A stretch of DNA of 64,000 nt from Chthoniobacteraceae bacterium (GTDB lineage: Bacteria > Verrucomicrobiota > Verrucomicrobiia > Chthoniobacterales > Chthoniobacteraceae). The stretch covers positions 124,001 to 188,000 of the forward strand of contig JAQGOL010000009.1 in the NCBI GenBank assembly GCA_028293625.1. Direction: 5' to 3'. Shown in pieces: positions 38,352-42,142 of the stretch. Every line of letters starts with the position of its first letter. Positions within the stretch are counted from its first letter, which is position 1. The position numbers and the translations under genes are program-made. The notes beneath the pieces were generated by a model that saw only the letters and a list, made by a program, of their open reading frames with translations, did no database searches and was not told the DNA's origin.

Positions 38352-39641
38352 ATGGCACATCCGCCTCGAGCGCCGGGACCGCGTGGCCTGCCAGTCACGG
38401 GAAGCCTTTGGCGCCTAAGTGGGGATGCCTTGGGATTTTTGGGTTCCCTTGAAGAACGTTACGGAGCGGTTGTACAGGCGCGAATCGGTCATCTTCGCTA
38501 TCATTTGATAAGTGACCCGGAGCTCATTGAACAGGTGCTTTGGCGCCGGGCAGATTGCTACACGCGGGCGAGCCCTTCGAACTCAAAGCTAACGGATATC
38601 ACCGGATCAAGCCTGCTCACGACCATTGGCGGGGAGTGGCATAAGCGCAGGAAACTGATTGCCCCATTCTTTAGCCGGGAACGAATGAGCCTTGAGCTCC
38701 CGACAATGATCGAAATGACCTCGAGGCATCTTTCCAGATGGAGCGAGCCGGCTCAAAGAGGAGAACCTGTTTCCGCGACGGCCTCCATTATGGGATTAAC
38801 CTGCGCCATCGTAAGCAAGGTGCTCTTTGGAACCGCAGTGGAGGATCCGGCCCTTGAACAGGCGCTTGCCGATATTCTTTTGCACCATTGGCGGCGGCTG
38901 AAAGACCCCCTGGAACTCCTGCACCGGTTTCCCACGCAAAGCCGGAAAGCGTTTGATGCGGGAAATCAATTGGTGGCGCAGATCGTTGCAGGGGTGTCGC
39001 AACACGGCGGGGAGGGGACACTGCTGGAGGCATTGCGCGCTGCGGCCGGAGAAAAAACCGGCATTCAGATCGAGGACGAGCTGATTACCTTGCTGATTGC
39101 AGGCCACGAAACGACCGCCAATGCGCTCATCTGGGCAATGCACCTTTTGGCAAATTCTCCCGCTATTCAAGAGCAGCTGCGCGCCGAGGCGCTCGAGGCG
39201 GATTATTCTTCCGGCACACCATTGCCGATCGCCACGCGGGTTTTTCAGGAGTCGCTGCGGCTCTATCCTCCGATCTGGATCATCGAACGCGAGGCGCTCG
39301 TGGAGGATGAACTGGGCGGTTTTCGCATTCCCGCTCAAAGCAGCGTGCTCGTGGCGCCTTGGGTGATGCATCGAAGTCGTCGATTCTGGAGCGACCCGGA
39401 TCGGTTCGAGCCGGAACGGTTTCTTTCGGCTCCCGCCAAACACGTTTATATCCCATTTGGCATTGGCCCGCATGCGTGTGTGGGCGTCAATCTTGCCTTG
39501 ATGGAGGGGCCGCTGCTGCTCTCGCTCGCGGCGCGCGCATGGAAATGGCGCGGCATTGAAGGAGCGCGTGTTGCACCCCAGCCCGGGCTTACTCTAAGAA
39601 TGCGGGAACCGCTCCGCTTACTTGTGGAACCTGTCCAATGA
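38352..39641 (+). CDS. Cytochrome P450
   Basis: 429 residues, soluble, no membrane anchor. The oxygen-binding I-helix motif is AGHETT at 250-255, the ExxR pair is Glu300 and Arg303 in ESLRLYPP, the PERF region is FEPERF at 352-357, and the haem loop FGIGPHACVG carries the axial Cys376. All key residues are intact. The enzyme inserts oxygen into a hydrophobic substrate and needs external redox partners, which are not encoded nearby. The overall look is closest to the fatty-acid/terpenoid-oxidising bacterial P450s with class B-like I-helix. Its stop codon overlaps the start of the PAP2 gene (ATGA), suggesting a joint role on a lipid or isoprenoid substrate. Confidence 0.96.
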   Translation: MAHPPRAPGPRGLPVTGSLWRLSGDALGFLGSLEERYGAVVQARIGHLRYHLISDPELIEQVLWRRADCYTRASPSNSKLTDITGSSLLTTIGGEWHKRRKLIAPFFSRERMSLELPTMIEMTSRHLSRWSEPAQRGEPVSATASIMGLTCAIVSKVLFGTAVEDPALEQALADILLHHWRRLKDPLELLHRFPTQSRKAFDAGNQLVAQIVAGVSQHGGEGTLLEALRAAAGEKTGIQIEDELITLLIAGHETTANALIWAMHLLANSPAIQEQLRAEALEADYSSGTPLPIATRVFQESLRLYPPIWIIEREALVEDELGGFRIPAQSSVLVAPWVMHRSRRFWSDPDRFEPERFLSAPAKHVYIPFGIGPHACVGVNLALMEGPLLLSLAARAWKWRGIEGARVAPQPGLTLRMREPLRLLVEPVQ

Positions 39642-40315
39642 ATTCCCGTGTCCGGCAAATCCTGTTGCGTCTCGCCATTGTGGTTGGCTGGACCACAGCC
39701 CTCTACTCGATCTATCAGCTAACCAATCGGTATCAAATTTTCACACCACGCGGGCTGAGTCTGACTCCCCTTGATCGAGCTATCCCTTTCTGGCCGTGGA
39801 CAGTTGTCCCTTACTTTATATTGATCGGGGGAATGTATTTGCCGGCCTTTCTTCGCACCGACGCGCTTTTCTGGCGCTCCCTTCTTGCGGTGACGATCGG
39901 GGTGCTGATCAATTACACCGTATTCGCACTTTGGCCGACGACCTATCCACGTCCAATGGCTCCAACGGGCTCCGGGTTTTATCTCGATTGGTATCGCTGG
40001 TTGATTTCAATCGATACTCCAGCCAACTGCTTTCCGTCCGGCCACATTACGGCCCCGGCGATTGGCTGCTGGGCTCTTGCCCGGGAGCGTCCCCGCTGGA
40101 AATGGGCGATCCTGCTTGGGTTTGTCCCGCTGGCCCTGACGATTCTCACCACCAAGCAACATTATATCGTCGATTTGCTCGGCGGCCTTGTCACCGCGGC
40201 AATCGGTCTTTTGTTTGCCCGGTTCATTCTTCCTGTTCGTGAAGGGAGCGCGGATCCACGTCTCTTCCACGTCTTTCAAAATCCCCGTCCGCCGCTGCGC
40301 GATTTTGTGGAGTAA
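39638..40315 (+). CDS. PAP2-superfamily membrane phosphatase/transferase
   Basis: 225 residues, about six membrane helices. CFPSGH near residue 130 holds motif 2, and TTKQHYIVDLLGG near residue 170 motif 3 (with the catalytic His and the Asp); motif 1 (K-x6-RP) is only loosely matched by WPTTYPRP. Family members remove or transfer phosphate from lipids or polyprenyl diphosphates; the nearest pattern is that of the inositol-phosphotransferase/AUR1-like and PAP2 membrane enzymes. The four-base overlap with the P450 gene implies coupled translation. A shared lipid or isoprenoid substrate is possible but unproven. Confidence 0.88.
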   Translation: MNSRVRQILLRLAIVVGWTTALYSIYQLTNRYQIFTPRGLSLTPLDRAIPFWPWTVVPYFILIGGMYLPAFLRTDALFWRSLLAVTIGVLINYTVFALWPTTYPRPMAPTGSGFYLDWYRWLISIDTPANCFPSGHITAPAIGCWALARERPRWKWAILLGFVPLALTILTTKQHYIVDLLGGLVTAAIGLLFARFILPVREGSADPRLFHVFQNPRPPLRDFVE

Positions 40316-40419
40316 ATGAAGCGTGCCCAACGCCCTTGGATGCGGCAGGTGGGATGAAATCGTAATTTTCTCTAAAATAATGTCCCTGCCGGGCAGTCTG
40401 GCGCGCGTGGTATTTGCAG

Positions 40420-40707
40420 ATGAACTTCTCTAATCCACCTCAAAGCCTCCCCCCGCAGCAGTCACGCCAGCGAAATCGCGCCGGTCAATGGCCCTATAGA
40501 GGAGTCAAACGCCCGCAGCGCGGACAGCGTTTTGGCGCTCAGATCCGCATCCAAGGGAAATTGCTTCACCTGGGCAACTTCCTGACAATAGAAGACGCGG
40601 CTCGGGCATACAATGCCGCTGCCCTCGAGCATTACGGAGCCAAAGCCATTCTCAACGTCATTCCCTCCGACGAATCCGGGAGTGCCGTCAGAGCACGTGA
40701 GTTTTAA
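40420..40707 (+). CDS. Stand-alone AP2/ERF-type DNA-binding protein
   Basis: 95 residues from the ATG at 40420. After a Gln/Pro-rich start of 20 residues, residues 26-80 form one AP2 domain: YRGVKRPQRGQRFGAQIRI (three-stranded sheet), HLGNFLTIEDAARAYNAAAL (helix) and YGAKAILNV. The conserved plant-domain residues YRGV, the G-x-F before the helix, AARAY and N near the end are all present. In bacteria this domain is mostly fused to HNH endonucleases or integrases of mobile elements; here no nuclease is attached and none lies next to it. It could be a small transcription factor or a leftover of a homing element. It ends 180 bp before the PEP-CTERM gene. Confidence 0.85.
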   Translation: MNFSNPPQSLPPQQSRQRNRAGQWPYRGVKRPQRGQRFGAQIRIQGKLLHLGNFLTIEDAARAYNAAALEHYGAKAILNVIPSDESGSAVRAREF

Positions 40708-40885
40708 TGAGGGTTCGGGCTCTTATTGACCGGCTCGGAATCACTAATAGAGGGGCAGGATGAAAAATAATTTAGCATTTCTCCGGCGAATGAATTAGAC
40801 GTTTTTTTCAGCAGAAAAATCCCTTCTGGAGGCTAGAATCCTGCTTGTCTACGGAGTCTCCAGTTTACCACCCTTGTTTAAATTA

Positions 40886-42142
40886 ATGAAGTCCACAGTA
40901 TTTGCCGCCGCCATTTTTGCCTCTTTGCTCTTTACAGGGCGTCCCGCCTCCGCCGGCACGTTCTCTTATTCCACCTTCACCAGTGATGCCGACTCAGGCA
41001 TCAGCGCCCTGCTAAATTACACGGCAGTTGCCGATTTTAATGGAACAGGCTTGCGCTCGGTCAATGGGGTGGCTTTTGCGGATTTCGGAGCAAACGGCAC
41101 TAACTCGAGCTACTCGCTCAGCGGCACCGGAGCGACGTTCGTTAATAACGGCAGCAATGTAACGGGTGACTCAAATGGCCTGGTGAGTGATTTTGTGTAT
41201 ACAGGCGATACAAGCGGGAACGCGTCGCTGGTATTGAACAATCTTATTATTGGTCAATCGTATGTGACTTCCTGGTATAATACCGCTTTCGGTGGTGCGG
41301 GCGGCCGTAAGATTGATATCACCCCAAGTGATACTGGTGTTGCTTTTAATTTTGACGAAAATTACAACGGCGCCTCCAATGGCCTTAATAACGGGAATGT
41401 TCTCCGTTACGCTTTCACTGCCACCGCTCCCAGCATCACCTTCGGTTTTGACGCGGTTAGCAATGGCGATTCGTTTCATCATTATGCGATGACAAATTCG
41501 GTGGCAAATACCGCTGTCCTTGCCACCCCTGTCGTTAGCGCAACCACGGGCCCAGGACCGTTTACGCCATACACTGTGCGGAACGATGATTTGCTTCAGA
41601 CCCATCTCTCCGGCGTTACTGCGCAGGGTAATTTCACCCGGGATGGCGCCGGCGGAGTCGCCGCGCTGACTGATGGTATTTTTCTCATTAACGGCGGTAA
41701 TCCTGCCAATAATTCCGCTTTCGCGACTGGCGAGGACAACGCATCGATTGTTTTTGATTTGGATATCACCACAGCCGCCCTCGGTTACGACATCTCCAGC
41801 ATCGCCACTTACGGCGGCTGGAATGACAGCGGCCGCGATCGTCAGCTTTTTAAGATTTCCATCTCACTGGTTGGCAGCAGCGATTTTACCTACCTTGGCG
41901 CGCTTGACTTCAATCCAACCGCTGCCGGCGATCCAAGCGCCGTTAGCGGCATCTTCGACACCACGCTTACTCATGTCGACGCGATCCGGTTCGACTTTTT
42001 TGCCGGCCAGGAGAATACTTACGCCGGTTACGGGGAGTTCGATGTGATCGGAAGCGCGACGACGATCCCTGAGCCGGGCTCCGCGGCGCTGTTGGTTGCA
42101 GGTGCCGCTGGTGTTTTGATGCGCCGCCGTCGCAACGCATAA
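40886..42142 (+). CDS. PEP-CTERM sorted surface protein
   Basis: 418 residues from the ATG at 40886 (a TTG at 40874 opens the frame earlier). Signal peptide at residues 1-24, ending RPASAG. The C-terminus has the sorting signal: IPEPGS, a hydrophobic segment (AALLVAGAAGVLM) and RRRRNA. Such proteins are recognised and cut by an exosortase and then displayed, often alongside exopolysaccharide. Between them are about 370 residues of Gly-, Asn-, Ser- and Thr-rich beta structure with no catalytic motif. No exosortase gene is in the window. The FemAB-containing glycan locus may belong to the same biology (inference). Confidence 0.9.
   Translation: MKSTVFAAAIFASLLFTGRPASAGTFSYSTFTSDADSGISALLNYTAVADFNGTGLRSVNGVAFADFGANGTNSSYSLSGTGATFVNNGSNVTGDSNGLVSDFVYTGDTSGNASLVLNNLIIGQSYVTSWYNTAFGGAGGRKIDITPSDTGVAFNFDENYNGASNGLNNGNVLRYAFTATAPSITFGFDAVSNGDSFHHYAMTNSVANTAVLATPVVSATTGPGPFTPYTVRNDDLLQTHLSGVTAQGNFTRDGAGGVAALTDGIFLINGGNPANNSAFATGEDNASIVFDLDITTAALGYDISSIATYGGWNDSGRDRQLFKISISLVGSSDFTYLGALDFNPTAAGDPSAVSGIFDTTLTHVDAIRFDFFAGQENTYAGYGEFDVIGSATTIPEPGSAALLVAGAAGVLMRRRRNA

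Follow-up and report, generated by a model that had tools for sequence, protein, structure and literature searches.

A stand-alone AP2-domain gene in a Chthoniobacteraceae bacterium resembles the C-terminal module of HNH-AP2 homing endonucleases

Why should a bacterium carry a gene for little more than a single AP2 domain? Bacterial or phage HNH-AP2 endonucleases are thought to be ancestral to the AP2/ERF factors of plants, as Magnani et al. reportedly proposed in 2004. In the stretch of Chthoniobacteraceae DNA analysed here (64,000 nucleotides, hereafter the window) a first-pass annotation singled out a free-standing AP2 protein of 95 residues, which it considered to be plant-like and perhaps a domesticated DNA-binding factor. 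The question is whether this protein is a regulator, the remainder of a nuclease or a gene acquired from a plant.

The gene and its domain are present as first described, and the frame is intact over 95 codons. It comprises the following features:

40420..40707, forward strand: stand-alone AP2-domain gene, 95 amino acids, ATG to TAA (from the open reading frame, Pfam, PHROG and codon choice)
40495..40659, forward strand: AP2 domain, residues 26–80 (from Pfam, the structural model and Foldseek)
40456..40494, forward strand: basic stretch, residues 13–25, which aligns weakly to the HNH-to-AP2 linker of relatives (from alignment and inference)

The AP2 domain is recognised in this protein far above chance. 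The Pfam AP2 family (PF00847) matches residues 26–73 with an E-value of 1.6e-4 and 22.3 bits, below the gathering score of 33.3. Four bacterial, phage and archaeal relatives score between 22.9 and 39.2 bits with the same family; L044 and L062 lie over the cut-off, and L035 (22.9) and L043 (27.3) lie under it, and this threshold therefore fails to delimit the bacterial branch. A profile built from 34 bacterial, phage and archaeal AP2 domains, with the query left out, gives the 95-residue protein 74.5 bits. In the PHROG collection it is matched by seven HNH endonuclease families, the best of which is phrog_99 (E 1.5e-12). NCBIfam has no match to the protein, and PADLOC assigns nothing to it.

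An AlphaFold model made with 29 sequences has the AP2 fold, with pLDDT values of 84–92 in the core. The three-stranded sheet packed against one helix is present and its elements are in order: a first strand of just two residues, strands at 38–44 and 47–54 and a helix at 57–75. Foldseek returned four matches at E<=0.001, every one of them a plant AP2 structure. The model fits AtERF1 (1gcc) to 1.1 Å with a TM-score of 0.78 by target length, the two sequences being 46% identical across 57 structural columns. A phmmer search of solved structures with E-values up to 10 gave five matches, again all from plants (WRI1, ERF096, two sequences of AtERF1, and TEM1). Judging from the fold and the core residues, the module probably grips DNA in the AP2 manner.

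The sequence relatives are found largely in phages. The protein matches 136 phage records, all at less than 60% identity and none covering 80% of the query; among the 20 phage matches listed, 13 are annotated as an endonuclease of some kind and seven as hypothetical. Seven plasmid records also match. Searched with the protein alone, genome contigs gave nothing and viral contigs gave one locus; a three-row profile found 48 viral and two genome loci. We read 51 loci, comprising 42 of those 50 and nine from other searches (L034–L042); eight presumed near-copies with the same score and identity were omitted (L046, L047, L061, L066, L067, L076, L077 and L081).

In 48 of the 51 loci the AP2 domain is C-terminal within a longer protein, a fraction that is no unbiased census because the relatives were picked by similarity to the query. 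An HNH stretch is readable by eye in most of them, and for three short frames the HNH part was recovered in a further search; this bears out the expectation that bacterial AP2 domains are mostly joined to HNH nucleases. The remaining three encode AP2 alone or nearly so: L044, from an assembly of Bathyarchaeota; L051; and L056, the frame of which begins at the tail of the HNH part. Stand-alone AP2 frames are thus uncommon, not unique. A staphylococcal plasmid encodes an 'AP2 domain-containing protein' (L042:2228-2737) with the N-terminal length of an HNH-AP2 protein, in which the HNH histidines are unreadable by eye; this is possibly a nuclease-dead HNH-AP2 variant.

The best-matching known proteins are the HNH-AP2 homing endonucleases (phrog_99; called 'IPA-HNH HEGs' in the excerpted text of PMC10448857). 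The query shares with them the spacing of the AP2 domain, a basic linker stretch and up to 50% identity, but these proteins have a nuclease domain, whereas the query lacks HNH and does not lie in a phage. AP2 genes split from their nuclease have already been described. According to the same excerpts, gp116 of ICP1 encodes an AP2 domain on its own, as the query does, but the HNH gene gp115 adjoins it and a frameshift is inferred there (PMC10448857); the query has no nuclease half.

Traces of such a half were sought with an HNH-AP2 profile and a profile of its HNH part, with filters off, in read-through frames of 39300–41600 and in segments of all six frames across the entire window. No HNH was found in the AP2 gene, in this 2.3-kb region or in the window (best E-values 0.69 and 1.1), and the AP2 domain is the only match to the HNH-AP2 profiles in the window's frames. 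Homology to HNH-AP2 proteins starts at position 104 of the 198 in the profile, in the linker that follows HNH. The earlier remark that no nuclease gene lies nearby therefore holds for the flanks and for the window as a whole.

The gene is scarce among the relatives of its host. Within the genus it occurs in one of four genomes, its own, and no copy was found in the three others. Two of 40 genomes in the family match, the second with a 30% match that contains five in-frame TGA codons. At E 0.01 five of 213 genomes in the order match, and the four besides its own all carry internal stops. The class sample (384 genomes) gave its own genome and a weak match in a genome designated G022, and the phylum sample (387) its own genome only. 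With an AP2 profile one of 210 genomes in the order is matched, again its own, in two places. Three of 318 genomes in the phylum sample match this profile; the other two carry HNH-AP2-like proteins in which HNH, by eye, is degenerate to varying degree.

The protein retains 17 of the 20 positions that are conserved at >=70% in 34 relatives, and its core residues are kept. By leave-one-out comparison it ranks 22 of 35, tied with five other rows, which is typical for the family. In simulations of unselected substitution about one conserved position is lost per five changes, and the count falls from 17 to 16.0 after 5, 15.2 after 10 and 9.0 after 60. Few unconstrained changes have therefore built up, and the gene is either young in its present state or constrained. 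A run of 10 random substitutions leaves the frame free of stops in 67% of cases, so the loss of the nuclease may be very recent. The synonymous codons are nearer to those of the neighbouring genes than base composition predicts (p 0.0145) and are in this respect host-like; the total codon log-odds is weak, the antisense frame being equal (0.059 vs 0.060).

On balance we favour, if by no wide measure of confidence, the reading that this gene is the C-terminal AP2 module of an HNH-AP2 homing-endonuclease-type protein, transferred in without its nuclease and with its role unsettled. Only the DNA-binding module of such a protein would be encoded. It would have arrived by transfer, with the nuclease either already gone or removed by a traceless deletion, and the three-stranded sheet would keep its grip on DNA. 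The product would be a young orphan or a leftover, at most a small DNA-binding protein, and most likely without a settled role yet, since there is neither a nuclease nor any orthologue. Counting for this are the PHROG matches, the 74.5-bit profile score, the architecture of 48 of the 51 relatives, the start of homology in the linker, the lack of any HNH remnant and the failure to find an intact copy elsewhere among the 3 other genomes of the genus and the 213 of the order. Counting against it, the conserved positions and the host-like codons fit a gene that has been kept for longer; the closest relative is only 50% identical and no donor HNH-AP2 gene was found; and a clade of plant domains plus the query is not rejected.

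The conserved positions and codons, together with the surroundings of the gene, are what speak for a domesticated regulator, in which AP2 was kept after the nuclease was lost and would now repress or activate a unit close by, such as the P450–PAP2 pair upstream or its own gene. The nearest neighbours are these:

38352..39641, forward strand: cytochrome P450, overlapping the start of the PAP2 gene (from the ORF list and Pfam)
39638..40315, forward strand: PAP2-superfamily phosphatase, 104 bp upstream of the AP2 gene (from the ORF list and Pfam)
40886..42142, forward strand: secreted protein with a PEP-CTERM signal, 19.8 bits with a cut-off of 20.7 (from the ORF list and Pfam)

The P450, PAP2 and AP2 genes form a run on the same strand, and co-transcription of the PAP2 and AP2 genes is possible. 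Farther neighbours include TetR, rhomboid, rhodanese, HEAT-repeat and SDR genes. No phage or mobile-element gene was read among the neighbours, in line with the first-pass annotation, and the GC content of the locus is unremarkable. A parallel is offered by the repressor CapR, which in the excerpted text of PMC10448857 derives from the DNA-binding part (T5orf172 domains) of another family of homing endonucleases.

Against a regulator, conserved orthologues were found neither in the three other genomes of the genus nor in the 213 of the order. No words common to the region upstream of the P450 gene and the flanks of the AP2 gene rise above shuffled sequence, no inverted repeat or operator-like repeat was found at the AP2 gene, and a promoter-like site at 40354–40381 is at chance level. 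We found the same neighbourhood neither in the other three genomes of the genus nor in G022. In these the PAP2 gene (39638–40315) has no match at E 0.001, so the neighbourhood may be lineage-specific; the P450 neighbour has only weak matches in the relatives compared. A settled domesticated factor is thus unsupported, with no intact copy elsewhere among the genus and order genomes examined and no shared operator-like sequence found, and we regard the regulator as unlikely, although it fares better than the two explanations that follow. Since none of the close relatives examined has it, the gene resembles a stray module more than a demonstrated regulator of the plant type.

A further explanation, which we hold to be improbable, is that the frame is the decaying end of a local HNH-AP2 gene whose function is already lost. 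Truncated AP2 frames do stand alone in the three relatives named above (L044, L051 and L056), and the gp115/gp116 pair of ICP1 is read as a frameshifted HNH-AP2 gene in the excerpts of PMC10448857. Here, however, no HNH remnant is present in any frame, and the conserved positions are retained that simulated unselected change would soon erode. With the nuclease remnants absent and the conserved positions undecayed, the decayed frame that the first-pass annotation had named as the contrary case is not borne out; a recent loss or capture may have taken place.

The last question is whether the domain is plant-like. The fold is common to the query and plant AP2/ERF domains (AtERF1, 1gcc; WRI1, 7wq5; TEM1, 7et4), at 33–46% identity, but the query has no loop of ERF length and its Pfam AP2 score is far lower (22.3 bits against 36.6, 50.4 and 60.9 for three plant domains). 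That it carries nearly all plant ERF consensus residues, as was first noted, is overstated, since phage HNH-AP2 proteins are as close to it as AtERF1 is (46–51% for the closest phage proteins, 46% for AtERF1). Plant domains reach 43.8–55.2 bits on the 34-domain non-plant profile, against 74.5 for the query. On a profile of four plant AP2 domains the query scores 49.8 bits and is second among the non-plants, the first being L060, a viral HNH-AP2 domain; 74.5 and 49.8 bits are not strictly comparable, coming from profiles of 34 and of 4 rows. Among the positions taken to be base contacts in AtERF1, R27 and R43 of the query are retained; in the phmmer alignment R150 is replaced by K30, W154 by R34, E160 by Q41 and W172 by H50. 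By eye, the inter-strand spacing, like the H that precedes LG, is of the bacterial type.

Spacing and profile scores point to a sequence of the bacterial or phage AP2 kind, and the tree does not tell a plant origin from a phage one. In a tree of 39 rows and 69 columns, 26 of the 36 branches are open, and constraining the query and the four plant domains as a clade gave a p-AU of 0.629 and a likelihood 4.3 log units above the free search; the tree neither supports nor rejects this clade. Uptake of a plant or algal AP2/ERF gene by the bacterium is very unlikely: WRI1 at 48.9 bits (phmmer), the constrained tree, the second rank on the plant profile and a 'GAKAILN' end that we take to be plant-like count for it, but the low Pfam score, the bacterial spacing and H before LG, the higher rank of a viral domain on the plant profile and the few columns and many open branches of the tree count against it.

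The genome contains a second, distant AP2-like domain in the region C40:73701-73865, which a Pfam search alone does not detect. It forms the N-terminal part of a 243-residue protein (L102:1459-2190), whose C-terminal part has weak REase_MTES_1575 and DUF559 matches of 29.7 and 16.7 bits, both under their cut-offs. The gene lies about 1.3 kb from a divergent BREX set (BrxA 237.7 bits, BrxC 1143.7 bits and the N-terminal part of PglX). No phage record matches the protein, and the plasmid matches listed cover its nuclease part only. It is possibly an AP2-guided defence nuclease. The literature search found nothing joining AP2 domains with Verrucomicrobi or with DUF559.

In the class, 41 of 384 genomes match PF00847, and most of the loci taken from these genomes belong to a family of proteins of about 145–160 residues (L005–L031, alignment A3). 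Its members have an AP2-like C-terminal half and an N-terminal half of similar look. Like the query, most of them have no HNH, but the family has no profile-detectable homology to the 95-residue protein. It was not found in the query's own genome, and NCBIfam has no model for three members that were tried. Its members may represent a genuine free-standing AP2 factor of bacteria. One member, L004 (reverse strand, 994–1923), has an extra C-terminal part that looks HNH-like by eye (CEIC...HHT...CSNCH).

The plant AP2 factors are described as descendants of homing endonuclease genes in the excerpted text of PMC10448857. A transcription factor that a bacterium had fashioned from the AP2 half of a homing endonuclease of phage would repeat this proposed route independently; that the present gene is such a factor, caught early and in a single species, strikes us as a rather doubtful prospect. 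Only the intactness of the gene is shown at present, so the case is a lead and not evidence. An intact, nuclease-free bacterial AP2 gene would nonetheless be a natural test case for the passage of such a module to a regulator.
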